DNA from: an uncultured Spirochaetia bacterium
Lineage (GTDB): Bacteria; Spirochaetota; Spirochaetia; CAKZLE01
Direction of reading: 5' to 3'
NCBI GenBank assembly: GCA_937125225.1
Contig: CAKZLE010000018.1
Span: 1-64,000 of the forward strand
Length of the DNA: 64,000 bases
The first letter of the stretch is position 1; the number at the start of each line of letters is the position of its first letter. This document shows positions 27,605 to 43,336 of this stretch, piece by piece. Below the pieces are notes generated by a model, which saw nothing but the letters and a program-made list of their open reading frames with translations, made no database searches and was not told where the DNA came from. The position numbers were made by a program, and so were the translations under genes.

Positions 27605-28615
27605 TTGGCAATCACCATCCGTGATATAGCACAACATGCAAAAGTCTCAGTGACCACCGTATCTCGTGTACTCAATGATAGACCCGATGTCAAAGAGGCT
27701 ACTCGAGTGAAGGTGAATGCTGCCATCGATGAGCTCGGTTACAGTCCGAACATCGTAGCGAGAGGACTTGTCCTGCAGAAATCCCATGTGATCGGTTTCA
27801 TCGTCCCTGATATCACGAATCCCAGCTTTCCTGAACTTGCACGAGGTATCGTAGCCCAGGCAAGAGGGTATGGGTATTCTGTCATGTTCTATGATACGAA
27901 CCATGATAGAAGAGTGGAGAAGGAGGCAATCAGACTACTTAAGAGTAAACAGGTCGATGGTATCATCCTCTCCTTCAACGAGGCGAACAAAGAGGAACTC
28001 GAGCGACTGAAGCACGAACACTTCCCGATCGTGCAGATCTATAGGAAGAGTAGCAACTCGGTCGTCTCCACGATCGCTCTCGATAATGTGAAGTCAGGAT
28101 ATGTCGCTACCAAGTATTTGATCTCCTTAGGTCATAAGAGGATCGCCCATATCTCAACAGGTGAACAGGTCCAATCTGGTTCAGAGAGATTGCAGGGTTA
28201 TAGAGAGGCCCTGTCTGAGGCAGGGCTGCCGTATGAGGAAGATCTTGTATGTTTCGGGGTGAATAGTGCGGCCTCAGGTAAAGAGTGTATGGAGGAGCTG
28301 TTGTCTCTTGATGAGTCAGGAAGACCGACAGCGGTCTTTACCTGTCACGATATCATGGCAGCAGGCGCATATGATGCGATACTTGCTGCAAACTTGCGAA
28401 TACCCGATGATATATCGATCATCGGACATGATAATAATCAGCTATCATTATTGATCCATCCGAAGCTCACAACAGTGGATACCTATAAACACCAGTTGGG
28501 TCAGAAGGGTGTTGATCTGCTCTTAGAACAGATGAACGCAGAGGAGCCTACCTATAAAGAGGTCCTATGCGAAACAGGGTTAGTCATCAGAGAATCAACA
28601 AGAAGTATAGAATGA
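27605..28615 (+). CDS. LacI-family transcriptional regulator
   Basis: A 336-residue repressor. The N-terminal helix-turn-helix reads ITIRDIAQHAKVSVTTVSRV, followed by the hinge helix region NIVARGLVLQKS. The periplasmic-binding-protein-like effector domain begins IGFIVPDITNPSFPELARGI. The start is TTG at 27605, preceded by GGGAG; ATG is not available at this point. A shared operator sequence ties it to its own promoter and to the ADP-ribosylglycohydrolase/importer/citDEF operon downstream. Inducer unknown, presumably the imported sugar or riboside. Confidence 0.93.
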   Translation: MAITIRDIAQHAKVSVTTVSRVLNDRPDVKEATRVKVNAAIDELGYSPNIVARGLVLQKSHVIGFIVPDITNPSFPELARGIVAQARGYGYSVMFYDTNHDRRVEKEAIRLLKSKQVDGIILSFNEANKEELERLKHEHFPIVQIYRKSSNSVVSTIALDNVKSGYVATKYLISLGHKRIAHISTGEQVQSGSERLQGYREALSEAGLPYEEDLVCFGVNSAASGKECMEELLSLDESGRPTAVFTCHDIMAAGAYDAILAANLRIPDDISIIGHDNNQLSLLIHPKLTTVDTYKHQLGQKGVDLLLEQMNAEEPTYKEVLCETGLVIRESTRSIE

Positions 28616-28623
28616 GGGATAGG

Positions 28624-28646
28624 GACTAGGATCTAGTCGGTTTTGT
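28624..28646 (+). terminator. Short terminator after the LacI gene
   Basis: Perfect 6-bp stem GACTAG / CTAGTC with a 3-base loop, followed by GGTTTTGTT, nine bases after the stop codon. This separates the repressor transcript from the operon that starts after it. Confidence 0.5.
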
Positions 28647-28650
28647 TATA

Positions 28651-28685
28651 TATAGTTTTGAAAACGTTACCGGAAACGTTTCCGG
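28651..28685 (+). promoter_or_regulatory. Promoter and LacI operator of the ARH/ABC/citDEF operon
   Basis: The 25-bp block found in front of the LacI gene recurs at 28660-28684. Here the palindrome extends to 16 bp, CCGGAAACGTTTCCGG (28670-28685). A TATAGT (28651-28656) just upstream is the likely -10; I see no good -35. The ATG of the first gene follows 20 bases later, so bound repressor would block initiation. Confidence 0.78.
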
Positions 28686-28705
28686 TTGAAATAAAGGGAG
28701 TTAAG

Positions 28706-29701
28706 ATGCAGAACAAGAAAGTAGATGCAGAGGTGTTCACACAAAGATCGGTAGCTGCGATGGCCGCATTGGGTATCGGGGATGCTGCCGGTGATCTGGG
28801 ACGAGATGATGATGTGAGACTGCGATATGGTATCCTTGTCAGTCTTCTACCTGAAGGTAAGAGTACTGATGATACTGAGTTCACCGTGCTATCGGCACGA
28901 TGTCTACTTGATACAGATGGTGAGATAACCTCACAGAGCGTAGCTCAGACCTGGAGAGAGCTCGTGCTCTCTGATGGTGGAGCTAAGAAGAGGGGAGGAC
29001 TTCCCTTATATGGAGCATTATGGAACCTATCTCAAGGCATCGAGCCTCCACTGACTGGTAAGGACAATGCCTTCAATATCGATGATGGGGCTGCTATGAG
29101 ATCGGTGCCTTTCGGGATCGTGGCATGTGGTGATCCGAAAGAGGCTGCACGACTTGCAGCGATCGATGCATCAGTAAGCCATGATATTGATGGTATCTGG
29201 TCAGCACAGGCAATCGCTGCGAGTATTACCGTTGCATTGACCGGTGGCTCTGTTGAAGAGGTCTATAAGGCTGGGATGGATCAGATCCCTGAAGATAGTT
29301 GGCTTGGAAGAAGGATGAGACTCACCGATGAGATCCTTGCAAGTGATATGAGTGAGATGGAGAAGTTCGAAGCGTTGCATACGAAGTTATGGACCCCAAA
29401 ACACTCCTCATCTCCTGAGGCTATCCCTCAAGTATATGCACTCTATAAACTCTCAAACGGTGATTTTACCAAGGGCTTCCTGCTCTCCGCTAACTTCGGA
29501 AGAGACGCTGATACCGTCTGTGCTCTGACTCTGGCTCTTTGTGCGGCAGGATCTGATGCTGGTACTATTCCACAGGCCTGGATCGATCAGGTTCGTAAAC
29601 CTTCGGGGGTATGTCTCTCCTTCGCAGCACAAGAGGATATGGTGGATCTTGGACAACGATTAGCTGCATTGGGTCTTAAGAGAGCAGGTCAGAGGGCTTA
29701 A
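28706..29701 (+). CDS. ADP-ribosylglycohydrolase (DraG/ARH) family protein 1
   Basis: A 331-residue all-helical Mg-dependent hydrolase of the ADP-ribosylglycohydrolase fold. Metal-site motifs are present: GIGDAAGD, STDDTEFT near residue 55 and GRDADTVCAL near residue 270. Family members cleave ADP-ribose from proteins or small ribosides. The chosen ATG follows AAAGGGAG by five bases; a longer frame from 28643 crosses the operator. First gene of an eight-gene operon with an ABC importer, which points to a small imported riboside or related glycoside rather than a modified protein (inference). Confidence 0.88.
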   Translation: MQNKKVDAEVFTQRSVAAMAALGIGDAAGDLGRDDDVRLRYGILVSLLPEGKSTDDTEFTVLSARCLLDTDGEITSQSVAQTWRELVLSDGGAKKRGGLPLYGALWNLSQGIEPPLTGKDNAFNIDDGAAMRSVPFGIVACGDPKEAARLAAIDASVSHDIDGIWSAQAIAASITVALTGGSVEEVYKAGMDQIPEDSWLGRRMRLTDEILASDMSEMEKFEALHTKLWTPKHSSSPEAIPQVYALYKLSNGDFTKGFLLSANFGRDADTVCALTLALCAAGSDAGTIPQAWIDQVRKPSGVCLSFAAQEDMVDLGQRLAALGLKRAGQRA

Positions 29702-29706
29702 GATCT

Positions 29707-30612
29707 ATGATGAACAAGAGGTCACTAAAGAGACGGGTATACAGAGATCGCTATCTGTATCTCATATTCCTGCCGGTATTGGCATATTTCCTCGTTTGGC
29801 ACTACATCCCGATATGGGGCGCACGTATAGCTTTTCAGGATGTGAGATATATCGGCGATAATGAATGGGCAGGGTTGAAGCATTTCAAACTGTTGTTCTC
29901 CTCACCGGTATTCTTCCGTGTGTTCATGAACACCATCACTATCAGTTCGATGAAGATATTCTTCTTCTTCCCACTACCGATCATTCTTGCCTTCCTCCTC
30001 AATGAGGTGCGATCTCAGAACTTCAGGAAGGGCGTGCAGAGTATGATCTATCTGCCTCACTTCCTCTCTTGGGTAGTCATCGCAGGTATATTCATCTCCT
30101 TGCTGCAGTCTCCTGATGGTGCGGTCAACAAGGTGCTGGCATTCTTCGGGATGGAGACTATTCCCTTCATGACGAGTACCTCTCATATTAGATGGGTCTT
30201 CGTAGTATCGGAGATCTGGAGATCGATCGGATGGGATTCTATCCTCTATATCGCTGCGATCAACAATATCTCATTAGAACTCTATGATGCAGCGACCGTA
30301 GATGGTGCTACAAGATTACAGCAGGCGATGAAGATCACACTTCCCTCGATCCTGCCGACGATCATAACCGTCTTTATCCTGAACCTGGGGTTCTTCATGA
30401 ATGCAGGGTTCGATCAGGTCTTCAATATGATGAATGATGCAGTCATCAATCATGTCGATATCATCGACACCTATGTCTACCGGATCGGCCTTGGGAAGGG
30501 GAACTTCTCCCTAGGAACCGCAGCCGGACTCTTCAAAGGTGTCATCGGACTGTTTCTGATCCTCTCAACAGACCGTCTGAGTAGAAAGGTTACCGGGGAG
30601 GGAGTATGGTAA
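29707..30612 (+). CDS. ABC importer permease, LplB type
   Basis: A 301-residue permease with six membrane segments. Opening RDRYLYLIFLPVLAYFLVWH and the EAA loop LYDAATVDGATRLQQAMKIT followed by LPSILP match LplB/YtePQ-type subunits, which move oligosaccharides. Two consecutive ATGs (29707 and 29710) are possible starts. The stop overlaps the next permease gene by seven bases. Confidence 0.9.
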   Translation: MMNKRSLKRRVYRDRYLYLIFLPVLAYFLVWHYIPIWGARIAFQDVRYIGDNEWAGLKHFKLLFSSPVFFRVFMNTITISSMKIFFFFPLPIILAFLLNEVRSQNFRKGVQSMIYLPHFLSWVVIAGIFISLLQSPDGAVNKVLAFFGMETIPFMTSTSHIRWVFVVSEIWRSIGWDSILYIAAINNISLELYDAATVDGATRLQQAMKITLPSILPTIITVFILNLGFFMNAGFDQVFNMMNDAVINHVDIIDTYVYRIGLGKGNFSLGTAAGLFKGVIGLFLILSTDRLSRKVTGEGVW

Positions 30613-31499
30613 GGAGTAGAAAGAGAAGATCTACTGGACAGATTGTCCTAGTCGTATGTCTAGCATTACTATCACTAGCGATGTTCTATCCGATCTATAA
30701 CCAGTTGGTCATCTCTTTGACCGGTCCTGAGTATATAGCTGCAGCGAATGGGACGACAATCATTCCTCGAGGTTTTACCCTCAATACCTATATCAGTGTC
30801 CTCTCGATCCCGAAGGTCTACAGAGGTGTACTGAACAGTATGTTCATCACGGCCGTCGGACTCGTCGTGAATATCGTCCTGACTAGTATGGGTGCCTATG
30901 TCCTGACAAAGAGAGATCTTGTAGGAAGGAATTTCTTCATGACTCTGATCGTCATAACGATGATCTTCGAGGGGGGGCTCATCCCGGACTATTTCCTGAT
31001 GAGAGACCTTCATCTCCTCAACAGATATGCCTCAGTGATCATGTATAAAGCGGTGAATCCCTATTACCTGATCATCTTGATGCGTTTCTTCGATAAGGTT
31101 CCCAAATCTCTCATGGAATCAGCAAGACTCGATGGTTGTAGCGATATGAGAATCCTGTTCAAGATAGTCATTCCCATAAGTATCTCTGGAATAGCTACGA
31201 TCAGTCTCTTCTATGGGGTTTTCCATTGGAATGAGTACTTTAGAGCGATGATCTATCTGACCGATGAGGTGAAATATCCTCTGCAGGTAGTCTTGAGGGA
31301 GCTAATCGTATCTATGGAGAAGGCCTCATTCGTTGGAGCTAACAACTATATACAGAGTGCGACAACTGCAGCGGCATTGGATTTCAAGGCGATCAAAGCT
31401 GCCTTGATCATTATTGCGATCGTTCCGATCCTCGTATTCTATCCTTTCGTATTACGTTATTACGTAAAGGGGAGACTACAGGGAGCGATAAAAGAATAG
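30606..31499 (+). CDS. ABC importer permease, LplC type
   Basis: Partner permease, 297 residues, six membrane segments. LMESARLDGCSDMRILFKIV followed by IPISISG is the EAA loop. The long external loop after the first helix (GTTIIPRGFTLNTYISVL) is usual for LplC-like subunits. It is translationally coupled to the LplB-like gene. Confidence 0.9.
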   Translation: MVRSRKRRSTGQIVLVVCLALLSLAMFYPIYNQLVISLTGPEYIAAANGTTIIPRGFTLNTYISVLSIPKVYRGVLNSMFITAVGLVVNIVLTSMGAYVLTKRDLVGRNFFMTLIVITMIFEGGLIPDYFLMRDLHLLNRYASVIMYKAVNPYYLIILMRFFDKVPKSLMESARLDGCSDMRILFKIVIPISISGIATISLFYGVFHWNEYFRAMIYLTDEVKYPLQVVLRELIVSMEKASFVGANNYIQSATTAAALDFKAIKAALIIIAIVPILVFYPFVLRYYVKGRLQGAIKE

Positions 31500-31542: not shown

Positions 31543-32943
31543 ATGAAGAAAGTTTTATCAGTACTTGCACTATGTGTATTGGTAACAGGAAGTCTGTTTG
31601 CCGGTGGTGGACAGGAATTACAGATGGAAGACAATGTTCCAGTGATCAGAATCGTAAGTAAAGACGTCTCAGAATCAAACCCATGGGACAAGGCTCACCT
31701 TGATAACATCACAGCAGGATTCTCTGCATATGTTGGACAGGAAGTCGTATTAGAGTTCGTTGATATGCCAGAGGGCGCCTATGCAGAGAAACTCAATCTC
31801 ATGCTCCTCGGTGGCGACATCCCAGACCTGATCTATTTTCAGGGTGGAGATGAGGCAATCAGCAAACAGGGGATCTTAGAAGATCTTACTCCATTCGTTG
31901 CAGACTCTGCAGTGATGCAGGAAGTTCTGATGGATTTCAACAAGCAGAGAATGGCTAACTACCCATACCTGCTCTGGATAGCTCCTCCTCGAGCTCGAAC
32001 AGCAGTCGTTAGAGAAGACTGGTTCGAAGAGGCTGGTGGAGTGATGCCTGTGACCATCGATGATTATTATGACATGATGAAGACCATCAAAATGAATCAC
32101 CCAGAATCTGCAGTCGTGACAGATACCGGAAATACTGGAAGAATGGACTTCACCTTCGATCAGGCTTTTGGAAACACTGCTACTTGGGTCATGGAAGATG
32201 GTTCTTATGTTTACAAAGGTGTATCAGATGCTCAGAAAGAGAAATTGGCTTTCTATGCGAAACTCTATAGTGAAGGAATTCTCGACAATGACTATATCAC
32301 CACTAAATGGGACACCATGGAAGACAAACTCTATACGGGTCAAGTCGGTATGGTATTCGGTACTGCAGGTATCGTCCTAGATATCTACAACAACAAACTC
32401 CAAGAGAATCAGGGAGTTGGACTTGTAGCGCTACCACCAGCAAAAGGTGTAGGCCAGGGATATCCTGTATCATCAGCAAAAGAGACAAGAGGCTGGGCGA
32501 TCAGTGCTCTTTCAGCAAACAAAGATCTGACCTTCCAATTGCTCGAATACCTTGCAACAGATGAGGGACAGTTCATGGAGAGATACGGACTCGAAGATAT
32601 CCACTACACTATGAGTGGTTCTGACGTAGTCCTCACAGATGAGGCGAATAACTGGTGGCCAAGATTCCATGAAGTCATGAGCTGGGATGCACCGACTCCT
32701 CTGATGGGACCTGCTGGAATGAAAGGTTGGGAATTCATCATGGAATACTCCGTTGGTGATCCAGACTTCCCGATCCCTGAAGAACTCTCACCTACATGGG
32801 ATGCTTTGAGTAACCTTCAGAAAGAGTACACCTTCAAACTTATCACCGGTGAATATTCAATCGATATGTTCGATGAATTCGTAAAAGAGTGGTATGATCT
32901 AGGTGGAGAGAGAATAACAGAGTATGCGAACTCCGTTCTCTAA
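31543..32943 (+). CDS. ABC importer solute-binding protein, LplA-like family 1
   Basis: A 466-residue periplasmic binding protein. The signal peptide ends GSLFAGGGQE, again without a lipobox cysteine. VLEFVDMPEGAYAEKLNLML, GGDIPDLIYFQG and TGQVGMVFGTAG are the recurring parts of LplA-like proteins. AAGGAGG gives strong initiation. It is the fourth gene of the operon and is flanked on both sides by hairpins. Ligand unknown; flanking ADP-ribosylglycohydrolase-family genes suggest a glycoside or riboside. Confidence 0.92.
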   Translation: MKKVLSVLALCVLVTGSLFAGGGQELQMEDNVPVIRIVSKDVSESNPWDKAHLDNITAGFSAYVGQEVVLEFVDMPEGAYAEKLNLMLLGGDIPDLIYFQGGDEAISKQGILEDLTPFVADSAVMQEVLMDFNKQRMANYPYLLWIAPPRARTAVVREDWFEEAGGVMPVTIDDYYDMMKTIKMNHPESAVVTDTGNTGRMDFTFDQAFGNTATWVMEDGSYVYKGVSDAQKEKLAFYAKLYSEGILDNDYITTKWDTMEDKLYTGQVGMVFGTAGIVLDIYNNKLQENQGVGLVALPPAKGVGQGYPVSSAKETRGWAISALSANKDLTFQLLEYLATDEGQFMERYGLEDIHYTMSGSDVVLTDEANNWWPRFHEVMSWDAPTPLMGPAGMKGWEFIMEYSVGDPDFPIPEELSPTWDALSNLQKEYTFKLITGEYSIDMFDEFVKEWYDLGGERITEYANSVL

Positions 32944-33003: not shown

Positions 33004-33031
33004 CATATCTGTAAAGGGAAGATTGAAAGCT

Positions 33032-35122
33032 ATGACAGCAGAACAGTATCGACAGAGAGTCTATGGTGGACTTCTTGGAAAATGTGCAGGTGTACGACTC
33101 GGTGCACCGGTCGAACCGACTATCTGGAGTTATGAGAGGATCAAACAGACTTATGGTGATATCACAGGATATGTGAAGGATTATAAGAACTTCGCAGCAG
33201 ATGACGATGTGAATGGACCCATGTTCTTCATACGGGCACTGATCGATCAGAAAGATGAGATGAGTGCAGAGGCAGTAGGAAGAACCTGGCTCGATTATAC
33301 CCGAGAGGGGATCGGCTTCTTCTGGTGGGGTGGTTACGGCAGATCTACCGAACACACCGCCTATCTTAATATCGCAGCTGGAATGAGACCTCCTGAGACA
33401 GGAAGTGGAGAGGTGAATGGATATGCTCTTGCTGAGCAGATCGGTGGACAGATCTTCATCGATTCCTGGGGATGGGTATCACCGGATGATCCCGATCAGG
33501 CAGCACAGTTCGCCGAAATGGCAGCGAGTGTAAGTCATGGGAGAAATGGTGTATATGGTGGGATCTTCATAGCCGTATGTATCGCTCTCGCCTTCAGTGA
33601 AGATGATATTGAGAAGATCATAGAGAAAGCTCTGACCTATATACCCGATGACTCTGAATATACCCGAGTGGTAAAAGCAGTTCGTGATCTCTATAAGAGG
33701 GATCCTCTACAGTCACATTGGCGGGATGCTAGAGATATGCTTACCAGGGACTTCGGATATGATAGGTACCCTGGAGTCTGTCATATGATCCCCAATGCTG
33801 GCGTCTGTGCCCTGGCTCTCTATTATGGCCAGGGAGATCTAGCTCGAACTATAGAGATAGCAACGATGTGTGGTTGGGATACCGATTGTAATGCCGGGAA
33901 CGTGGGAGCGATCCTTGGTGTCATGAGAGGCCCTCAAGGGGTCCCTCAACGATACAGAAGACCCATCGGTGATGTGCATGTGGCAAGCTCCATCTCAGGA
34001 GCCCTAAACATCATCAATCTACCGAATGCAGCGACCGAACTCGCTATCCTCGGTGCAGGTTTGGAAGGTATAGAGATCCCTGAAACCTGGAAGGAGGGGG
34101 CTTTCAGTGATGACATCGTCCTTGATCTCTCACTTCCCGGGGGGACTGCCGGACTGAGAACCTCTTCAGATTACCTCGCACCGGTAGCACCGGGTGAAGA
34201 GTACTATCGTGAAGATGGGGTAGCCGTGATCCTTGATCGACTCATTAGAGGCAACCGTGCCCGAATCTTCTATAAACCCTACTATCGTAGAGACTCCTTC
34301 GATGATGAGCGGTATTCTCCTACCTTCACACCAACAGCCTATCCGGGACAGACCCTGAAAGTCTCTGGATACCTAGAGAAGATGAGCGGTCAGAGAATAG
34401 CATTGTCTCCCTATGTGAGAGATGCTAAAGCTAAAGAGGTCTTTGAATCCGAATATATCTTCATAGGTGACTCAGATGAGTTCTCTTTTGAGTATACCCT
34501 ACCAGAGGTTCCCTTCGCTATCGATGAGGTAGGAATATTGGCAACGAACTTCGACAGCGAGAAATATCTGGGGACTCTTGTCATCACCAGCTTCACAGTC
34601 ACGGGGAAGAGGTCCTTCTCTATAGAGTTCAAAGATGAGATCAAGGAGTTCAAAGGGCTGACACGGTGCTCTCTCTCTGGGGGCGCCTTTGATATCGAAC
34701 AGGAATCCCTTCATATGATCACCACTGATACGAGTGAACTCTACAGTGGACCCTATTATGGGAAAGACTATAGCGTCTCTACCTCGATGATACCTGAATA
34801 TGGGGATAGTCATATGCTCATATTCAGAGCCCGGGGTGCAGCTTCAGGATATTTCTTTGGTTTCAGCGGGAAAGACCGGGTCTCTCTTATCAAGAGGGAT
34901 AAGGATCTTGAGATCATCAAAGAGATCGATTATTCCTGGGAACTCGCAAAGAGCTATTCCCTTACCGTCAGATGTGACGGTAATACCTTTACCTGCAGTA
35001 TAGAGGGAGAGGAGCTTCTGAGTTGGACTGATCCTGATGCCTATCCCTATGGGATGGCAGGTGTGGGAAAACTGGCTGCAGGAAGGACTCGATACTTGAA
35101 TCTATCTTATCAGGAGTCGTAA
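33032..35122 (+). CDS. ADP-ribosylglycohydrolase-family protein 2 with C-terminal beta-sandwich domains
   Basis: A 696-residue protein. The N-terminal 340 residues are an ADP-ribosylglycohydrolase fold: GGLLGKCAGVRLG, AADDDVNGPMF and CGWDTDCNAGNVGAI supply the metal-site acids. The remaining 350 residues are beta-rich and look like two carbohydrate-binding or lectin-like domains (for example ISGAL to YLGTLVITSF, and the final EFKGL to YLNLSY part). No signal peptide, so it is cytoplasmic. ATG at 33032 is preferred over a TTG at 33023 because of spacing to AAAGGGA. Probably a glycosidase-like hydrolase on the imported compound. Confidence 0.82.
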   Translation: MTAEQYRQRVYGGLLGKCAGVRLGAPVEPTIWSYERIKQTYGDITGYVKDYKNFAADDDVNGPMFFIRALIDQKDEMSAEAVGRTWLDYTREGIGFFWWGGYGRSTEHTAYLNIAAGMRPPETGSGEVNGYALAEQIGGQIFIDSWGWVSPDDPDQAAQFAEMAASVSHGRNGVYGGIFIAVCIALAFSEDDIEKIIEKALTYIPDDSEYTRVVKAVRDLYKRDPLQSHWRDARDMLTRDFGYDRYPGVCHMIPNAGVCALALYYGQGDLARTIEIATMCGWDTDCNAGNVGAILGVMRGPQGVPQRYRRPIGDVHVASSISGALNIINLPNAATELAILGAGLEGIEIPETWKEGAFSDDIVLDLSLPGGTAGLRTSSDYLAPVAPGEEYYREDGVAVILDRLIRGNRARIFYKPYYRRDSFDDERYSPTFTPTAYPGQTLKVSGYLEKMSGQRIALSPYVRDAKAKEVFESEYIFIGDSDEFSFEYTLPEVPFAIDEVGILATNFDSEKYLGTLVITSFTVTGKRSFSIEFKDEIKEFKGLTRCSLSGGAFDIEQESLHMITTDTSELYSGPYYGKDYSVSTSMIPEYGDSHMLIFRARGAASGYFFGFSGKDRVSLIKRDKDLEIIKEIDYSWELAKSYSLTVRCDGNTFTCSIEGEELLSWTDPDAYPYGMAGVGKLAAGRTRYLNLSYQES

Positions 35123-35129
35123 GAAGCTT

Positions 35130-35393
35130 ATGGAAGTATGTAGCGGGAATAGAAAGAGGGGAGATCTTATCGTACGGCTTGATGACCGGGAGAATCCCTT
35201 GAATATGAGTATCACCTCGTCTGTGGAGTCTCTCTTTGGAGAACACCTCAAAGGGGTCGTAGAGGATACGATGAAGGCTCTTGGGATCACTACCGGGAAT
35301 CTGATCATAGAAGATGATCAGGCTCTTGATTTCGTTATCAAAGCACGTGTGATCGCTGCTGTCCAACGATTGAAAATGGAGGTGCAAGTATGA
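35130..35393 (+). CDS. citD: Citrate lyase acyl-carrier (gamma) subunit homologue, CitD-like
   Basis: An 87-residue homologue of CitD. Shared features are GDLIVRL, ITSSVESLFG and EDDQALDFVIKARVIAAV. In known CitD proteins Ser14 of the motif GTLESGD carries the phosphoribosyl-dephospho-CoA group. Here the aligned stretch is SGNRKRGD, so Arg10 replaces that serine. Cys4 and Ser5 are nearby. The gene starts seven bases after the upstream hydrolase gene and overlaps citE by four bases (ATGA). It either works without the normal prosthetic group or attaches something elsewhere; function is uncertain. Confidence 0.8.
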   Translation: MEVCSGNRKRGDLIVRLDDRENPLNMSITSSVESLFGEHLKGVVEDTMKALGITTGNLIIEDDQALDFVIKARVIAAVQRLKMEVQV

Positions 35394-36241
35394 GAACACT
35401 CTTATATACTCCCGCGAACACCCCTTCGATGATGATTCAGGCTCAAGTCTATGGAGCGGACGCTGTCATCTTTGACCTAGAGGATGCGATCGCCCCTGAT
35501 AAGAAGCTCGAGGCTCGGATCCTCCTGGCACAGATGTTCGAAGAGTGGGATTTTGAGACAACCGAGTTGATCGTACGAATCAATGGCCTCGATACTCCCT
35601 GGTGGAAAGAAGACCTTATCGCATTGATGGGGAAGAGAGCGTTTACCGTTCGTGTCCCAATGATTGAGACCCTAGAACAGGTTACACTACTCGATCGATT
35701 CCTCAATGACCTGGAGACCGAACGAGATATGGTGGTAGGGTCGACTCGTATACATATTCTTATCGAGACTCCGAAAGGTGTGGTAAACGCCTATTCGTTG
35801 GCAGGCGCCTCAAAGCGGATCACTGCTCTGGGATTCGGCGCTGAAGATTATTGTAGGGCGACTGGTATCATACGAAAAGGACCACCATACACCCTAGATT
35901 ATGTACGCAGCTCCCTTGTGAATGCGGCAGCCTCTTACGGATTGGAATGTCACGATTGTGCTTGGGGCTTTCTAGAAGACAGAACAGGTCTCGAAGAGGA
36001 GGCTAGAAGATCTAGATCTTTGGGGTTCTGTGGAAAGTCAGTTATTCATCCAGATCAGATTGAGATCGTGAATAGGGTATTCTCTCCAACAGAAGATGAG
36101 ATCAACTGGGCTGAGAGGATTCTCTCCTCTCTCTCAGGCGATGTTCATACCGTATCCGGGCAGATGATAGATGCACCGGTTGAGGCTCAAGCGAGAAGGA
36201 TCCTAGAGCTTCACTCGATCTATACCAAACAAGAAGAGTAA
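35390..36241 (+). CDS. citE: Citrate lyase beta subunit homologue (HpcH/HpaI aldolase family), CitE-like
   Basis: A 283-residue TIM-barrel lyase. LLYTPANTPSM, FDLEDAIAPD, VRINGLDTPW, ILIETPKGVVNA (metal-binding Glu), GFGAEDY (metal-binding Asp) and GFCGKSVIHPDQ follow the CitE order. One departure is VPMIET where CitE proteins normally have LPK. The expected role is cleavage of a citryl- or citramalyl-type thioester to an oxo acid and an acyl thioester. It overlaps citD and lies two bases before citF. Confidence 0.85.
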   Translation: MRTLLYTPANTPSMMIQAQVYGADAVIFDLEDAIAPDKKLEARILLAQMFEEWDFETTELIVRINGLDTPWWKEDLIALMGKRAFTVRVPMIETLEQVTLLDRFLNDLETERDMVVGSTRIHILIETPKGVVNAYSLAGASKRITALGFGAEDYCRATGIIRKGPPYTLDYVRSSLVNAAASYGLECHDCAWGFLEDRTGLEEEARRSRSLGFCGKSVIHPDQIEIVNRVFSPTEDEINWAERILSSLSGDVHTVSGQMIDAPVEAQARRILELHSIYTKQEE

Positions 36242-36243
36242 TC

Positions 36244-37776
36244 ATGATTTCACGAACAATACCAGATACCTATAAGGGGTACGGTGACGTACGTCCCACT
36301 ATGAATCAAACAAAGAGCCATACAGCACAAGTAGGTGACCTCCTAGACGAGGATCCGATCATTGATTCTTTGAGAAAGAAGGGGCGTACTCCCATACGCT
36401 ATGAAGAGCTTTCTCAGATCATTAGGGCATCGGGTCTTGCAGATGGGATGAGGATCAGTTTTCATCATCATCTGAGACTCGGGGATCGAGTATTACAGAT
36501 GGTCCTCGAAGAGTTGATGAAGATGGGTTTCAAAGATCTTACCCTCTGCCTCTCTTCAGTCATGGGAGAGGCCTGTAAAGCCGTATTACAAGCGGTAGAG
36601 ACCGGTGTGATCTCGATGATCGAGACGACTGGGATGAAACCTCCACTCTCAACGGCAGTCCAGCAGGCTACCTTGGGTATCCCTGTCGTGATACGTTCTC
36701 ATGGAGGACGGGCCCGAGCTCTTATGCAGGAAGATATTTCGATCCAAGTCGCCTTCATCGCAGCTTCAGCCTGTGATAGGAGGGGTAATATAACAGGAGC
36801 TGTTGGACCGAATAGGTTCGGTTCTATCGGGTATGCTATCCCTGATGCACTAAGATCCGAGTATGTTGTAGTGATCACTGATCATGAGGAGGAATCTATA
36901 CCGGTATCCATTCCCTATCAAGCCATTGATGGACTCTTACGAGTTCCCTCCATAGGAGCGAAAGAGGGGCTATCCGGGGGTTCTATTCGAAGAACCAAGA
37001 GACCTGTGGAGAAACTGATCGCAAGAAGAGCTGCTGAGGTGATCATAGCCTCAGACCTAGTAAGGGCTGAGTTCTCCTTTCAGGTAGGTAGTGGGGGTAT
37101 ATCATTAGAGGTATCACAGATACTCGCAGAGTATCTGAAGAAGAGGGACATCAAGTGTTCTTTTATCTCCGGTGGTATCACAGAACCTCTTGTGAAGATG
37201 CATGAAGAGGGCCTTGTAGAGCGACTGTATGATGTTCAGAGTTTTGATGATGCAGCAGCAGTCTCTCTCTCAGAGAACAAGGAGCATATTGAGATGAGTT
37301 CATCATTATATGCAGACCCAACCAATGAGTCCTGTCTAGCTCATAGACTCGATATCATGGTCCTCTCTGCTACCGAGGTCGACCTCGATTTCAATGTGAA
37401 CTCCTTCACTGGAACCGATGGAAGGATCCTCGGTGCCCTCGGAGGTGCCCCGGATACAGCAGCAGGGGCACGATTGACCGTAGTCGTTCTTCCCTCCTTC
37501 AGAGGAAGGATCCCCTCGATCTGTTCTTCAGTACGAACCGTCTGTACACCAGGTGGGACCGTCGACGTGGTAGTCACTGAACGAGGTATCGCAGTGAACC
37601 CTTTAAGAGAAGATATTCTTAGCTGTCTGAAGACTGCGGGGATCCCTACTCTTACGATGGGAGAACTCTTGGAAAAGGTTCTGGGTATTACAGGAAAACC
37701 TATGAGTATAGCAAGACATGCTCAACTTCAAGGAATCGTAGAATATAGGGATGGTACGGTTATCGATACATTCTGA
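36244..37776 (+). CDS. citF: Citrate lyase alpha subunit homologue (CoA/ACP transferase), CitF-like
   Basis: A 510-residue protein, the normal length of CitF, which swaps acetyl for citryl on the carrier protein. MRISFHHHLRLGD and the C-terminal GGAPDTAAGARLTVVVLPSF followed by RGRIPS and VTERGIAVNP match the family; the usual GGHSDTAAGA reads GGAPDTAAGA here. Last gene of the operon. No citC, citX or citG lies in the window, so maturation of a normal citrate lyase would need genes elsewhere. Confidence 0.87.
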   Translation: MISRTIPDTYKGYGDVRPTMNQTKSHTAQVGDLLDEDPIIDSLRKKGRTPIRYEELSQIIRASGLADGMRISFHHHLRLGDRVLQMVLEELMKMGFKDLTLCLSSVMGEACKAVLQAVETGVISMIETTGMKPPLSTAVQQATLGIPVVIRSHGGRARALMQEDISIQVAFIAASACDRRGNITGAVGPNRFGSIGYAIPDALRSEYVVVITDHEEESIPVSIPYQAIDGLLRVPSIGAKEGLSGGSIRRTKRPVEKLIARRAAEVIIASDLVRAEFSFQVGSGGISLEVSQILAEYLKKRDIKCSFISGGITEPLVKMHEEGLVERLYDVQSFDDAAAVSLSENKEHIEMSSSLYADPTNESCLAHRLDIMVLSATEVDLDFNVNSFTGTDGRILGALGGAPDTAAGARLTVVVLPSFRGRIPSICSSVRTVCTPGGTVDVVVTERGIAVNPLREDILSCLKTAGIPTLTMGELLEKVLGITGKPMSIARHAQLQGIVEYRDGTVIDTF

Positions 37777-38030: not shown

Positions 38031-40259
38031 ATGGGAATGATCAATTACAACAAGAAACAACAAATATTCCACCTCAATAATAATAAGATAAGCTATGTGA
38101 TCGGTGTATCGGATACAGGAAAACTGATGCACCACTACTATGGCTCCTTTATTGGGAACCAGCAGGACTTCTCCTGGTTCGTACAGGTGAGTCCACGAGC
38201 TCTTGCTGCTACTCAGAGTGGGCAGAGTATCAGTGATGAATACATCAGACATGAATATGGGACCTGGGGGACCGGTGATTATCGGGAACCCTCCTATTCA
38301 ATATTCTATGGTAATGATAGGAGACGATGTCAGTTCGCCTATCATGATCATAGGATCATCAGTTCAAAGAACTCGATTCTCCCGCTTCCTGAAGTAAGAG
38401 ATCCCAGAGGGGAATCCGAGACTCTTGAGATCGTACTGTTCGATTCGAATGCCGGTGTCATGCTCACATTAGTCTATACTATCTATCCTGAACTCCCGGT
38501 GATCGTCAGATCGGCTCGGGTACTCTCCCATAATGAAGAACCACTTGATATCAAGAGACTCAATAGTGCCTCTATCGATCTGTTCTCAGAAGATTATGAA
38601 GCCTATTCTCTCTGGGGCACCTGGGCTCGAGAGAGACATATACAGAAGAATCAATTATCGAAGGGGATCTTCTCCATTGGAAGTACCCGTGGGGCTAGTT
38701 CAGCTGATGCCAATCCCTTCATAGCTCTTGCTTCTTTGCATGCAACAGAACAGAGTGGGACAGTCTATGGCATGTCTCTTATCTATTCTGGGAACTTCAA
38801 AGCACAGGCAGAGGTCGACCATGATGGGATGACAAGGATGTCTATAGGGCTCCACCCTGATAACTTCAGTTGGTCTCTCTCTAAAGATGAATCCTTTCAG
38901 ACTCCTGAGGCGGTTCTTGTCTATTCGGACACCGGCCTCGGTGGACTCAGTCAGGGTTTCCATGAGCTAGCGAAGGAATATATCCAATCACCTACCTGGA
39001 AAGATACCGAAAGACCGATCGTACTGAATAATTGGGAAGCTACCTACTTTGATTTCGATGAAGAGAAGATCGTAGAACTCGCAGCGTCAGCTAAAGATCT
39101 TGGTGCTGAACTCTTTGTTTTAGATGATGGTTGGTTTGGAAGACGAAATGATGACACCTCATCACTCGGGGACTGGTATGTGAATACTGAGAAACTCCCG
39201 AGTGGTATATCTGGGCTCTCGAAGAGGGTGACAGATCTTGGAATCGGTTTCGGATTATGGATTGAACCAGAGATGGTCAATAGGGACTCTGATCTCTATC
39301 GCAGCCATCCTGAATGGGTCTTGGGCGATCCTGAACGTGCGACTATCGAGGTTCGGAATCAGCTAGTATTGGATTTTGCCAACCCATCTGTCGTCGATGC
39401 GATCTATTCGCAATTGATCGATGTGATCGATGGTTCAGCTATCTCCTATATCAAATGGGATATGAACAGGAATATGACTGAGCCGTACAGTCGATATATT
39501 GGAAGTAGTAGGCAGGGAGAGGTCCCTCACCGATATATTCTTGGTGTCTATGATCTCTATCGCAGGCTCAATGAACGTTATCCTCATATTCTTTTCGAAT
39601 CGTGTGCTTCAGGTGGAAACCGGTTCGATCTTGGGATGCTCTATTTTGCTCCCCAGGCTTGGACTAGTGATGATACAGATGCTGTTGAGAGGATAAAGAT
39701 CCAGTATGGGACGAGTATGGTCTACCCGCTCTCCTGTATCAGTAATCATGTATCAGATATTCCCAACCACCAGGTCGGAAGAAGCTGTCCTCTGAAGTTC
39801 AGAGGTGATGTTGCCTGTTTCGGTATCTTCGGTTATGAGATGGATCCAACGAAAGCAGATGAGCAATTAAGAGCAGAGATACAAGAGCAGGTCACTGCCT
39901 ACAAAGCCTTCCGGCCACTGATGATGAATGGCCACTTTTATCGGCTCCTAAGTCCTTTTGAGGGGACGGGGAATCAGGCGGCCTGGATGGTCGTATCAAA
40001 AGATAAGAGAGAGGCTCTTGCAGCTTTCTATCAGATACTCGCTGAACCGAATCCTGGTGAGAGAAGAATAAGATTCACCGGATTGGATCCGCATCTGACC
40101 TATGAGGTCACCTGTGATGGTGAGAGATCAATACTTGCTACCGGCAGGTTGTTACTATCCTTCGGATATATTCTGCCTCCGGTCTTCACCGGACATGGCG
40201 GGTGCAGTGGAAAAGCAGAAGATTTTTATTCTAGATTGATTAAGATCATGGCGGTTTGA
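38031..40259 (+). CDS. Alpha-galactosidase, GH36
   Basis: A 742-residue cytoplasmic enzyme that removes alpha-galactose from melibiose, raffinose and related sugars. The N-terminal beta-sandwich runs to about residue 330. The TIM barrel then has LDDGWFGRR, YIKWDMNRNM with nucleophile D477, and TSDDTDAVER with acid/base D547; the 70-residue spacing equals that of D478/D548 in Geobacillus AgaA-type enzymes. The start codon lies six bases after the -10 and has no Shine-Dalgarno, so the message may be leaderless. Importer genes follow after 37 bases. Confidence 0.93.
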   Translation: MGMINYNKKQQIFHLNNNKISYVIGVSDTGKLMHHYYGSFIGNQQDFSWFVQVSPRALAATQSGQSISDEYIRHEYGTWGTGDYREPSYSIFYGNDRRRCQFAYHDHRIISSKNSILPLPEVRDPRGESETLEIVLFDSNAGVMLTLVYTIYPELPVIVRSARVLSHNEEPLDIKRLNSASIDLFSEDYEAYSLWGTWARERHIQKNQLSKGIFSIGSTRGASSADANPFIALASLHATEQSGTVYGMSLIYSGNFKAQAEVDHDGMTRMSIGLHPDNFSWSLSKDESFQTPEAVLVYSDTGLGGLSQGFHELAKEYIQSPTWKDTERPIVLNNWEATYFDFDEEKIVELAASAKDLGAELFVLDDGWFGRRNDDTSSLGDWYVNTEKLPSGISGLSKRVTDLGIGFGLWIEPEMVNRDSDLYRSHPEWVLGDPERATIEVRNQLVLDFANPSVVDAIYSQLIDVIDGSAISYIKWDMNRNMTEPYSRYIGSSRQGEVPHRYILGVYDLYRRLNERYPHILFESCASGGNRFDLGMLYFAPQAWTSDDTDAVERIKIQYGTSMVYPLSCISNHVSDIPNHQVGRSCPLKFRGDVACFGIFGYEMDPTKADEQLRAEIQEQVTAYKAFRPLMMNGHFYRLLSPFEGTGNQAAWMVVSKDKREALAAFYQILAEPNPGERRIRFTGLDPHLTYEVTCDGERSILATGRLLLSFGYILPPVFTGHGGCSGKAEDFYSRLIKIMAV

Positions 40260-40296
40260 TCAAGGATCTGGATTCGATTCATAAAAGGGGAGGGGT

Positions 40297-41160
40297 ATGG
40301 AAAAAAAGTACATGTTCATTTTATTGTGGTTTCCGTTACTGTTGTTCGTAGCAGCATTTGCGTTGCCTTTATTCTACGGTGTCCTACTATCACTCAAAGA
40401 TACCAGTGGTAACTTTGTCGGAGTCACAAACTACGTAAGCGTACTTACAGATCAGAGATTCTGGGGTTCTCTCGGATTCACGTTCTTCTTTGCGTTTGTC
40501 GTCGTAGGACTCATGACGACCTTGGGACTGCTTTTCGGTGTGTTCATCAATCATCTGACGGTCGGTCAGAACCTGGTAAAATCATCGATGCTCATCCCAT
40601 GGGCTATCTCTTTAACTGCATGGGGACTATTAGGACAGATCGTGTTCAGTAAGGATTACGGTATCGTGAATCATCTGTTGATGGTCATTGGTCTGATAGA
40701 CAAACCGGTCGTCTGGCTTGCCGACCCGGGTAATGCGAAGTTCGCGATCATCGCATCCCGTATCTATAAGGATGTCTGGTTCGGTACACTTCTCTTCCTC
40801 GTAGCTCGACAGGGTATTTCCGGTGAGCTCTATGAAGAGGCAAAGGTCTCTGGAGCGACAGGCAGGTTCTGCCTATGGCATATAACGATCCCGCTACTTC
40901 GACCGACAATCCTCTATGTGGGGATCATCAATATGATCTTCTCCCTGCATGAGTTCGACCAGGTCTATGCACTTACTAAGGGTGGTCCGGGGTTTGCGAC
41001 TGAGACAGCAGCTATGGGTATCTATAAACATGGGATGCTCTTCGGTAACTATGAGATAGCGATAGCCCAATCGATCCTATGGAGTATCTTCATTGGAACA
41101 CTTGCAGTGATCATTTTTGTTCCAGGACAGTTAAGGAGTTTACGAAATGGCAATAAATAG
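40297..41160 (+). CDS. ABC sugar importer permease, MalF/UgpA type
   Basis: A 287-residue permease with six membrane segments, preceded by AGGGGAGGGG. The EAA loop is LYEEAKVSGATGRFCLWHIT followed by IPLLRPT. GGPGFATETAAMGIYKHGML is also typical of MalF-like subunits. It is downstream of the alpha-galactosidase gene, which suggests transport of alpha-galactosides. Confidence 0.9.
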   Translation: MEKKYMFILLWFPLLLFVAAFALPLFYGVLLSLKDTSGNFVGVTNYVSVLTDQRFWGSLGFTFFFAFVVVGLMTTLGLLFGVFINHLTVGQNLVKSSMLIPWAISLTAWGLLGQIVFSKDYGIVNHLLMVIGLIDKPVVWLADPGNAKFAIIASRIYKDVWFGTLLFLVARQGISGELYEEAKVSGATGRFCLWHITIPLLRPTILYVGIINMIFSLHEFDQVYALTKGGPGFATETAAMGIYKHGMLFGNYEIAIAQSILWSIFIGTLAVIIFVPGQLRSLRNGNK

Positions 41161-41998
41161 AAAAGCATATACCATGGTGCAGCTTCGTAAAGCTGGACAG
41201 GCATTGTTGGTTCTCGCCCTTTTGATCATGATCCTCTTTCCGATCTTCTGGCTTGGGCGGATATCTCTTACGGCTGAGAAGGCGATACTCTCAGAGCATG
41301 TGACACTACTCCCTGCAAAAGGGGATGTCAGTCTAGAGGCCTATCGGATAGCTTTCACAGAACATGACACGCTGAAATACCTGTTCAACTCTCTATTCAT
41401 TGTCCTCTGTGCGACGACGGTATCACTGTTCTTCAGTATATCTATCGCCTATGTGATAACGAAATATGAGTTCAAGGGAAGGACGGCAGTCATGACCGGG
41501 ATCCTTTTCTCGGTGACCATCCCCTGGATCGTCTATATCTTGCCACTGTTCACGTTCGCAGCCCAGGTCAACTGGCTTGATAAGCATGGTTTCATGATCT
41601 TCCTCTATGGGGTGAGTGGGATCCCGTTGTTTACCTGGTTCGCCATGCCCTATATGCAGGAGTTTCCTACAGAGATGATAGAAGGTGCAAAGATCGATGG
41701 CGCGAATGATCTGGTGATCCTCATACGGATCATCATCCCAGCGGTGAAGAATGTGTTGTTCGCCCTGTTCTTGATCAGATTCATCTGGGCCTACAATGAT
41801 CTGTTGTTCTCACTGACATTCACCTTCCACAAAGCGAAGATGATCATGCCTGCGATCCTGGAATTTGGGGGGCTCTATTCGGTACCATTCGCACGAATGG
41901 CAGCTGGTGGTGTCATTGCTATCACCCCTATCGTCCTACTTGTGATCGTTTTTCAGAAATATATCGAAACAGGTCTTACCGGCCGAACATTCAAATAG
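41147..41998 (+). CDS. ABC sugar importer permease, MalG/UgpE type
   Basis: A 283-residue partner permease overlapping the previous gene by 14 bases, with AAGGAG just before the ATG. Six membrane segments; the EAA loop is MIEGAKIDGANDLVILIRII followed by IPAVKN. No ATPase gene accompanies this importer either. Confidence 0.9.
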   Translation: MAINRKAYTMVQLRKAGQALLVLALLIMILFPIFWLGRISLTAEKAILSEHVTLLPAKGDVSLEAYRIAFTEHDTLKYLFNSLFIVLCATTVSLFFSISIAYVITKYEFKGRTAVMTGILFSVTIPWIVYILPLFTFAAQVNWLDKHGFMIFLYGVSGIPLFTWFAMPYMQEFPTEMIEGAKIDGANDLVILIRIIIPAVKNVLFALFLIRFIWAYNDLLFSLTFTFHKAKMIMPAILEFGGLYSVPFARMAAGGVIAITPIVLLVIVFQKYIETGLTGRTFK

Positions 41999-42005
41999 TG
42001 ATTTT

Positions 42006-42022
42006 ACCGGTTGTTAACCGGT
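42006..42022 (+). other. Intergenic hairpin before the binding-protein gene
   Basis: Perfect 7-bp stem ACCGGTT / AACCGGT with a 3-base loop, seven bases after the permease stop and ahead of the GGGAGG of the binding-protein gene. Same placement as the hairpin at 31506-31522. Confidence 0.55.
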
Positions 42023-42046
42023 GTGATAATAAGAAGGGAGGTTCTT

Positions 42047-43336
42047 ATGAAAAGAACATTGGCAGTTTTAGTGGTTTTATTGATGGCTTGTACCCTGCTG
42101 TTCGCAGCAGGTCAGCAGGAAGAAGAAGTAAATGCAGATAGCGGGAAGATCGTTCTGTATTCTCCATCTTGGGGTATCGAGTTCGCAGAAGAGATGATCG
42201 CAGAGTATGCAAAAGTCAAACCTGGTGTAGAGATCGAATTGATGAGAGGACCATCAGCATGGAACGAACATGTTGGTAGAACTTCATTATGGATGAAGAC
42301 CAAATTCTCAGGTGTAGACCTGGTATACATGGATGACAGTGGTATCGTCGATGGTGTTCCTAACGGGTATTGGGAAAAACTCGATGATGTATTGGCTCCA
42401 GGTTCAATCGAGAACCTCGTAGGACTACAGCAGAAATATATCGATGCACACGGTGGATTATACCGAGTCCCATGGTGGAACGGTATGGGATACCTTTTCT
42501 ACCGAATAGATATGTTCGAAGAGGCTGGCATCGAAGTTCCCACAACTTGGGACGAGTTGATGGTAGCTGCTGAGAAATTGACAATCGATAAAGATAATGA
42601 TGGAACGATCGACCAGTGGGGATACCTCACACAGGGTGGACCTGGTGAGATGTACAACAACTGGACAGAGTTCCTGATGCAGGCTGGTGGAGATCAGTTC
42701 AAATATGCTGAGAACGGAAAGGCAACAGACGAAGCTCTTAATGCTCTTCTGTTTATGAAAGAACTTTATAACACCGTCACTCCTCCAGATATGGTAGCGA
42801 TTGACTACAACCAGAGTAGAGCGATGTTCACTCAGGGTAAAGCAGCGATCCTTAGAGATTGGGCAGACACTGGTAGACTTGCAGTCACAGAAGGTATGAC
42901 CGACAAGATCGGGGTCATGGAATTCCCAGCAGGTCCTGCAGGCTCATGGGGAGTCGGCCACTCTTGGGGTATCGCAGTCAATAAGTTCGGTGATAACTAC
43001 AAGAAGAACCCACAAGCGATCGTAGACTTTCTAAACTTCATGATGACTGATGAGATCCACTCGATCTCAGCTAAGGCAGAAGGTCCAGCACTCGCATCTA
43101 TCATGGACGATCCTGCAAAACTCGATAAGATCATCCAGGGTTCGATCGTGATCGAACACTTCTCAGATTTTATCAATCACCGAGACGTTCGTAACTTCCC
43201 AGCCGGGAACTCCGCTGAATATATGGATATCATCGGAAAGAACATCTCAGCATTCGTTTTTGATAGAGATGCAGATCTTGCAGATGCAAATGATGTCTTA
43301 GTCACTATCCAGGAAGGATTAGATCCACTGTTCTAG
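42047..43336 (+). CDS. ABC importer solute-binding protein, family 1 (alpha-galactoside candidate)
   Basis: A 429-residue periplasmic binding protein. Start at 42047 is five bases after GGGAGG and gives the signal peptide MKRTLAVLVVLLMACTLLFA with AGQQEEE after it; a longer frame from 42011 reads through the hairpin. There is a Cys in the signal sequence (ACTLLFA), but it is not in a normal lipobox. KIVLYSPSWGIEFAEEMIAE and GKAAILRDWADTG follow the family pattern. It ends the operon and is followed by a strong terminator. Confidence 0.92.
   Translation: MKRTLAVLVVLLMACTLLFAAGQQEEEVNADSGKIVLYSPSWGIEFAEEMIAEYAKVKPGVEIELMRGPSAWNEHVGRTSLWMKTKFSGVDLVYMDDSGIVDGVPNGYWEKLDDVLAPGSIENLVGLQQKYIDAHGGLYRVPWWNGMGYLFYRIDMFEEAGIEVPTTWDELMVAAEKLTIDKDNDGTIDQWGYLTQGGPGEMYNNWTEFLMQAGGDQFKYAENGKATDEALNALLFMKELYNTVTPPDMVAIDYNQSRAMFTQGKAAILRDWADTGRLAVTEGMTDKIGVMEFPAGPAGSWGVGHSWGIAVNKFGDNYKKNPQAIVDFLNFMMTDEIHSISAKAEGPALASIMDDPAKLDKIIQGSIVIEHFSDFINHRDVRNFPAGNSAEYMDIIGKNISAFVFDRDADLADANDVLVTIQEGLDPLF

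Follow-up and report, generated by a model that had tools for sequence, protein, structure and literature searches.

Citrate lyase is the textbook example of an enzyme with a covalently attached phosphoribosyl-dephospho-CoA arm, and the carrier subunit of malonate decarboxylase bears a prosthetic group of the same type. To our knowledge, how the CoA-like arm of citrate lyase evolved is an open question. Dimroth and Eggerer reportedly found in 1975 that citrate-lyase subunits, once isolated, can use CoA esters. Three-subunit complexes that lack both the anchor residue and the cofactor genes would reveal the contribution of the arm and make it directly testable. In PMC3832036, the characterized CitE-like enzymes named there work on free acyl-CoA, and the Glu and Asp of CitE-like lyases are described as metal ligands.

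A CitD homologue without the anchor serine

The window analyzed here is a stretch of 64,000 nucleotides from contig CAKZLE010000018.1 (C18) of an uncultured Spirochaetia bacterium. An open reading frame at positions 35130 to 35393 of its forward strand (87 amino acids, ATG start) encodes a CitD-like acyl-carrier subunit, CitD′, that scored 62.2 bits against the Pfam family ACP/PF06857 (cut-off, 25.1) and 56.1 against the NCBIfam citD equivalog TIGR01608, below the cut-off of 63.5. In an alignment of 32 sequences (A3), the only invariant columns were D12, D62, and R73 (CitD′ numbering). Arg10 (codon 35157 to 35159; NRKRGD), two residues ahead of the invariant Asp12, fell in the Ser14 column of Escherichia coli CitD, which was taken from MG1655 and reads ...VAGTLESGDVMI. 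CitD′ therefore lacks the serine that anchors phosphoribosyl-dephospho-CoA in ATP-independent citrate lyases, as the preliminary description of this DNA had proposed. A frame, sequencing, or start-codon error behind Arg10 is unlikely and was rejected, since no in-frame start codon lies between the upstream in-frame stop at 35097 and the citD′ ATG and since Lys occupies the same column in orthologous loci of other genera (G001, YAVKGD; G049, KRDKLD; L107, SEEKGD; L114, KAQKGD). Cys4 or Ser5, suggested earlier as a substitute attachment residue, is not supported as the cofactor anchor because neither is conserved: immediately ahead of the Gly, the window protein has Cys-Ser, G001 has Glu-Ala, G049 has Ala-Ala, L107 has Cys-Val, and L114 has His-Ala.

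The AlphaFold model of CitD′ was confident, with a pLDDT of 93.4. A Foldseek search with this model returned 5vit_C, a malonate decarboxylase chain (TMq 0.78; rmsd 2.0), which ranked 15th by E-value and had the highest TMq among the 50 listed matches; the lowest E-values belonged mainly to chains from RNase P protein, the ribosome, and elongation factors, for which TMq was 0.39 to 0.59. A search by sequence for a solved CitD structure found none, and literature searches of open-license PMC papers listed none describing a CitD without the serine. An alignment of CitD-CitE fusions intended for modeling (A2) was set aside, as it appeared poor by identities and had one near-invariant column.

The citD′E′F′ operon and its sisters

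Nine genes on the forward strand run in the order LacI-type regulator (27605 to 28615; PF00356 and periplasmic-binding-protein domains), ADPRGH1, the second ADP-ribosylglycohydrolase-family protein of the operon (28643 to 29701; PF03747, 122.8 bits), two putative ABC importer permeases assigned because related loci share their position and sequence (29707 to 30612 and 30606 to 31499), an ABC importer solute-binding protein that is kept in related loci (31543 to 32943; PF01547, 73.5 bits), ADPRGH2, which belongs to the ADP-ribosylglycohydrolase family and has a long C-terminal extension (33023 to 35122; PF03747, 196.4 bits), citD′, citE′ (35390 to 36241), and citF′ (36244 to 37776). Only 7 bases separate ADPRGH2 from citD′, citD′ and citE′ overlap by 4 bases, and citDEF closes the operon. 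The transport genes include a sugar-type binding protein and no citrate transporter. ADPRGH2 adjoins citD′ in seven genomes (the window genome, G001, G049, L107, L114, G394, and G287), and in the last two CitD is fused to CitE. The G394 locus also encodes, directly 3′ of citF′, a protein that combines DSP-phosphatase-like and ADP-ribosylglycohydrolase domains (L078, 9746 to 11251). Beside the window operon, at 38031 to 43336, lie a GH36 alpha-galactosidase gene and then another ABC importer set. A tie between the ADPRGH neighbors and arginine ADP-ribosylation was considered and dropped, because most of the linked CitDs carry Lys and because the same anchor-loop change occurs without ADPRGH genes (G152, G373, and L162).

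In four sister ADPRGH operons (L081, L082, L083, and L084 in G025, G045, G341, and G408), the citDEF slot is filled by a succinyl-CoA-ligase-like protein and ATP-grasp_5; a citrate-synthase C-terminal domain, which completes an ATP-citrate-lyase-like trio, was shown for G045, G341, and G408. Other ADPRGH operons carry AtuA with DUF4387 (G415 and G360) or AtuA (G327 and G291), and we take AtuA to be tied to lyase chemistry. All of these modules fit the formation and cleavage of a CoA ester, and the presence next to ADPRGH genes of three cleavage modules that stand in for one another suggests an unknown nutrient. Some noncanonical relatives lie beside carboxylate transporters, of the 2HCT type in G006, G152, and Clostridium hydrogeniformans and of the Tct type in G132. 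In G152, downstream of the 2HCT transporter, an acyl-transferase-domain gene comes right after citDEF (L055, 9409 to 10308).

Features of CitE′ and CitF′

The CitE-like lyase subunit CitE′ (PF03328, 157.6 bits) scored 226.7 against the citE equivalog TIGR01588, far below the cut-off of 443.4, and 184 against the RipC_Ccl equivalog (cut-off, 375). It has the active-site Arg, Glu, and Asp expected of a CitE-like CoA-ester lyase (R63, E126, and D153), all invariant in 73 of 73 CitE rows; for R63, the active-site role is presumed. Residues 219 to 223 read IHPDQ. Across 131 aligned rows, less 4 duplicates and 3 rows for which no CitD was read, the motif HPxQ with x other than Arg or Lys was found in 22/22 CitEs beside a noncanonical CitD, compared to 4/102 beside a canonical one (G355, G376, L127, and L147). 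The CitE of L162, nested in Sporomusaceae, has HPSQ where nine relatives have NPRQ. Both L162 and G373b, which sit inside canonical groups in the CitE and CitF trees, carry the motif, and the nearest relatives of the G373b CitE already have the His (HPRQ). Among the five PDB relatives shown, 5ugr (HPSQ), 3qll (HPAQ), and 5vxc (HPNQ) share it, while 4l9y (HPKQ) and 4l7z (APNQ) do not, so the motif is no absolute mark of free-CoA enzymes.

The CoA-transferase subunit CitF′ (PF04223, 456.3 bits) is a CitF by TIGR01584, at 505.2 against a cut-off of 501.45. It has GGAPDTA instead of GGHxDTA; members of the window group, like many of the sequences closest to it, have GGAPD or GGGPD in place of GGHxD, but GGH is kept in some noncanonical sets. 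Propionigenium maris (L127 and L211) has a mixed system in which an IHPSQ CitE and a GGAQ CitF occur with citXG and citC, and its canonical CitD (NVESND) is encoded downstream of citC.

Cofactor genes

The preliminary description found no citC, citX, or citG in the window and called for a genome search. Their absence held for the window and for all of contig C18, on which none of the three was found, but not for the genome: contig C34 carries a complete normal operon of citC, citD (GTLESSD), citE, citF, a Tct-type transporter (genes named by reading the sequence), and a citXG fusion (L004, 4864 to 13435). PF01874 and PF03802 matched on C34 only, and PF08218 matched there and, weakly, once on C5. 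With CitC and CitXG present beside a canonical CitD, missing machinery cannot be claimed for this organism.

CitX and CitG were found in 0/12 genomes with solely noncanonical CitDs versus 34/36 surveyed genomes of the phylum with a canonical CitD; a Fisher P of 2.7e-8 belongs to a count of 32/34 canonical genomes, without G355 and G376. The 12 comprise ten of the 48 surveyed phylum genomes (G006, G049, G287, G099, G127, G132, G152, G174, G199, and G215) and the genomes of L107 and L113; the ten are not ten independent cases, since six are Brachyspira-type. Eight of the ten have a single CitD by PF06857, and G199 and G215 were classed from the CitDs read beside CitF. In the ten, PF08218 gave weak partial matches only, in three genomes (G006, 27.2 bits; G049, 21.2; G127, 20.9), and these are likely CoaD-like proteins. 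The two canonical exceptions among the 36 are G001 and G048; together with G453, they are drafts with a canonical CitD in which CitX and CitG were not found, so draft gaps do occur. G397 had CitX and CitG without a PF06857 match, and G402 had neither, with a CitF fragment only.

Among named genomes, CitX and CitG were each present in 42/50, and of the eight without them (L106, L107, L110, L111, L112, L113, L141, and L169), five had a noncanonical CitD at the locus, L141 had a canonical one in a 1.2-Mb draft, and L110 and L169 had no CitD found. L169 (Firmicutes UBA4845) encodes CitF and CitE, with no CitD match, CitX, or CitG found in the genome. At the locus level, among the best 80 of at least 588 relatives, any of CitC, CitX, or CitG was present in 0/11 noncanonical versus 48/63 canonical loci. 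Many rows in these comparisons are closely related, so that none of the counts should be read as independent. Genomes that combine a noncanonical CitD with cofactor genes always carry a canonical CitD as well. In G373, whose genome has a Ser14-to-Lys CitD, citG is split in two frames and citC has in-frame stops (C1, 2109396 to 2111280).

Distribution and origins of noncanonical CitDs

CitDs with an altered anchor loop were recovered from spirochaetes, Clostridia, Fusobacteria, and Sporomusaceae. The residue at the anchor site is mostly Lys or Arg and sometimes Ala or Pro; a Ser still stands in the Ser14 column of an altered loop in Brachyspira-type CitDs (KKISDD) and in C. hydrogeniformans (NEKSDD). 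CitF was found in 43/392 genomes of the phylum, with 48 matches in total. Beside these, 44 CitDs were read, 32 canonical and 12 noncanonical; six of the latter are the Ser-retaining Brachyspira type, and no CitD was read beside CitF in G376, G355, G397, and G402. The scan of named genomes covered the best 80 loci of at least 588 relatives, with CitD read in 74 (63 canonical and 11 noncanonical) and not in 6; three of the 11 (L106, L111, and L112) are also in the phylum set. Within these best 80 of at least 588, all 48 loci with cofactor genes had Ser14 and no Lys or Arg in loop residues 11 to 16, and Lys or Arg was present in the loop of 10/11 noncanonical loci (the exception being Fusibacter, TEDASD), figures that are only descriptive because the class is defined by the loop itself.

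In the CitF tree of 42 rows, the main 14 noncanonical rows were split from 24 canonical rows with SH-aLRT support of 96.8. A single origin of all noncanonical CitFs (18 rows versus 24) was rejected (p-AU = 8.7e-10). Placing L162 with the main 14 was rejected as well (p-AU = 0.0018), and so was placing G373b with them (3e-6). Joining the fusion pair to the main 14 was not rejected (0.379), nor was a single clade of all seven ADPRGH-linked CitFs (0.338). In a 73-row tree, the P. maris CitF, absent from the 42-row tree, fell inside the noncanonical side. The CitE tree requires at least four changes of state and, unlike the CitF tree, sets the window and Brachyspira/Fusibacter groups apart. Taken together, the two trees, which are unrooted, indicate three or more gains or losses of the noncanonical state. 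If the CitF root were on the noncanonical side, these sets would be relics of a precofactor state.

Possible function of the complex

We consider it likely that the product of citD′E′F′ is a citrate-lyase-type complex that dispenses with covalent phosphoribosyl-dephospho-CoA and whose substrates are free CoA esters of a citrate-like acid, with CitD′ as a scaffold. CitF′ would move CoA from acetyl-CoA onto a citrate-like hydroxy acid with release of acetate, CitE′ would cleave the resulting acyl-CoA to acetyl-CoA and an oxo acid, and CitD′, no longer a carrier, would keep CitE′ and CitF′ together. Because the priming thioester in this proposal is ordinary acetyl-CoA, CitC, CitX, and CitG would be unneeded. 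The acid probably derives from the compound that the same operon imports and processes. Use of free CoA thioesters, one of the options raised earlier, gains support from the missing CitX and CitG in genomes with solely this CitD type, the shifted CitE motif, and the trio of CoA ligase and citrate-synthase-like proteins in sister operons. The invariant R63, E126, and D153 of CitE and the free acyl-CoA used by characterized CitE-like enzymes also speak for it. Against it stand P. maris, in which CitE and CitF of this type occur with a canonical CitD, citC, and citXG, and G355, G376, and L147, in which an HPSQ CitE accompanies a canonical CitD. The cofactor genes on C34, the draft gaps, and the Ser kept in Brachyspira-type and C. 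hydrogeniformans CitDs count against it too. A more speculative extension is that a class of such complexes, which emerged or persisted in three or more lineages, gave up the covalent arm and that, to judge from the residue pattern, the basic loop residue would grip the 3′-phosphate of free CoA, making CitD a noncovalent clamp; we regard this as possible but rather doubtful.

The sugar-type binding protein, the two ADPRGH proteins, the lack of a citrate transporter, and the distance of CitE′ from the citE equivalog might instead suggest that the complex is no lyase for citrate-like acids and was recruited to carry out a different CoA-transfer or aldol reaction on the sugar-derived product of the operon. 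We find this unlikely, given the citrate-synthase-type domain and CoA ligase of the sister operons and the 2HCT or Tct carboxylate transporters that adjoin noncanonical relatives. It is less probable still that CitE′ and CitF′ form a hybrid complex with loaded CitD from the C34 operon, leaving CitD′ a dispensable leftover. A canonical CitD does occur also in the window genome, G001, G394, Fusibacter, C. hydrogeniformans, Sphaerochaeta UBA6084, and others; however, the genomes of G049, G287, L107, and L113, among others, have one CitD, which is noncanonical, without CitX or CitG, and CitD′ is retained in the operon across genera and even fused to CitE in G394 and G287.

The preliminary description also raised inactivity. 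Signs of decay can be seen in other genomes, in that the ADPRGH2 gene upstream is in pieces in G049 and the citC and citG of G373 are broken, but the window citD′E′F′ genes are open and tightly packed, their order is kept in orthologous loci of other genera, and the metal and substrate residues of CitE are invariant, so that an inactive or decaying complex is very unlikely. We give no more credence to a different covalent chemistry, in which the Lys/Arg or another CitD′ residue would carry a different group: Lys/Arg is the commonest replacement, yet the residue varies (R, K, A, or P), Cys4 and Ser5 are not conserved, and the invariant residues of A3 are limited to the three named above. Returning to the free-CoA complex that we favor, labeling such citDEF sets as citrate lyase, or a genome as deficient for lack of citX and citG, can mislead.

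Comparison with known systems

The window set resembles CitDEF of E. coli and Klebsiella, the ATP-independent citrate lyase, in its three subunits, its gene order, a CitF′ above the TIGR01584 cut-off, and the PF06857 match of CitD′. It differs in that the anchor serine is missing, the locus holds none of the cofactor genes, CitE has HPxQ rather than NPRQ, and the operon is of a sugar type. CitE′ is of the same lyase family as the CitE-like free-CoA enzymes malyl-CoA lyase, RipC, and CLYBL, has the metal-binding Glu and Asp, and carries the HPxQ motif seen in 5ugr, 3qll, and 5vxc; unlike these enzymes, it belongs to a CitD/CitF gene set, and it is under the RipC cut-off. The malonate decarboxylase carrier (5vit_C) resembles CitD′ in fold, with the top TMq among the 50 listed Foldseek matches, but CitD′ cannot bear that carrier's prosthetic group at the Arg10 position. 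ATP-citrate lyase, or citryl-CoA synthetase with citryl-CoA lyase, is comparable in that such a trio fills the citDEF slot in sister ADPRGH operons; that system, however, activates the acid with ATP and is built from unrelated protein families, and the overall reaction alone is alike.
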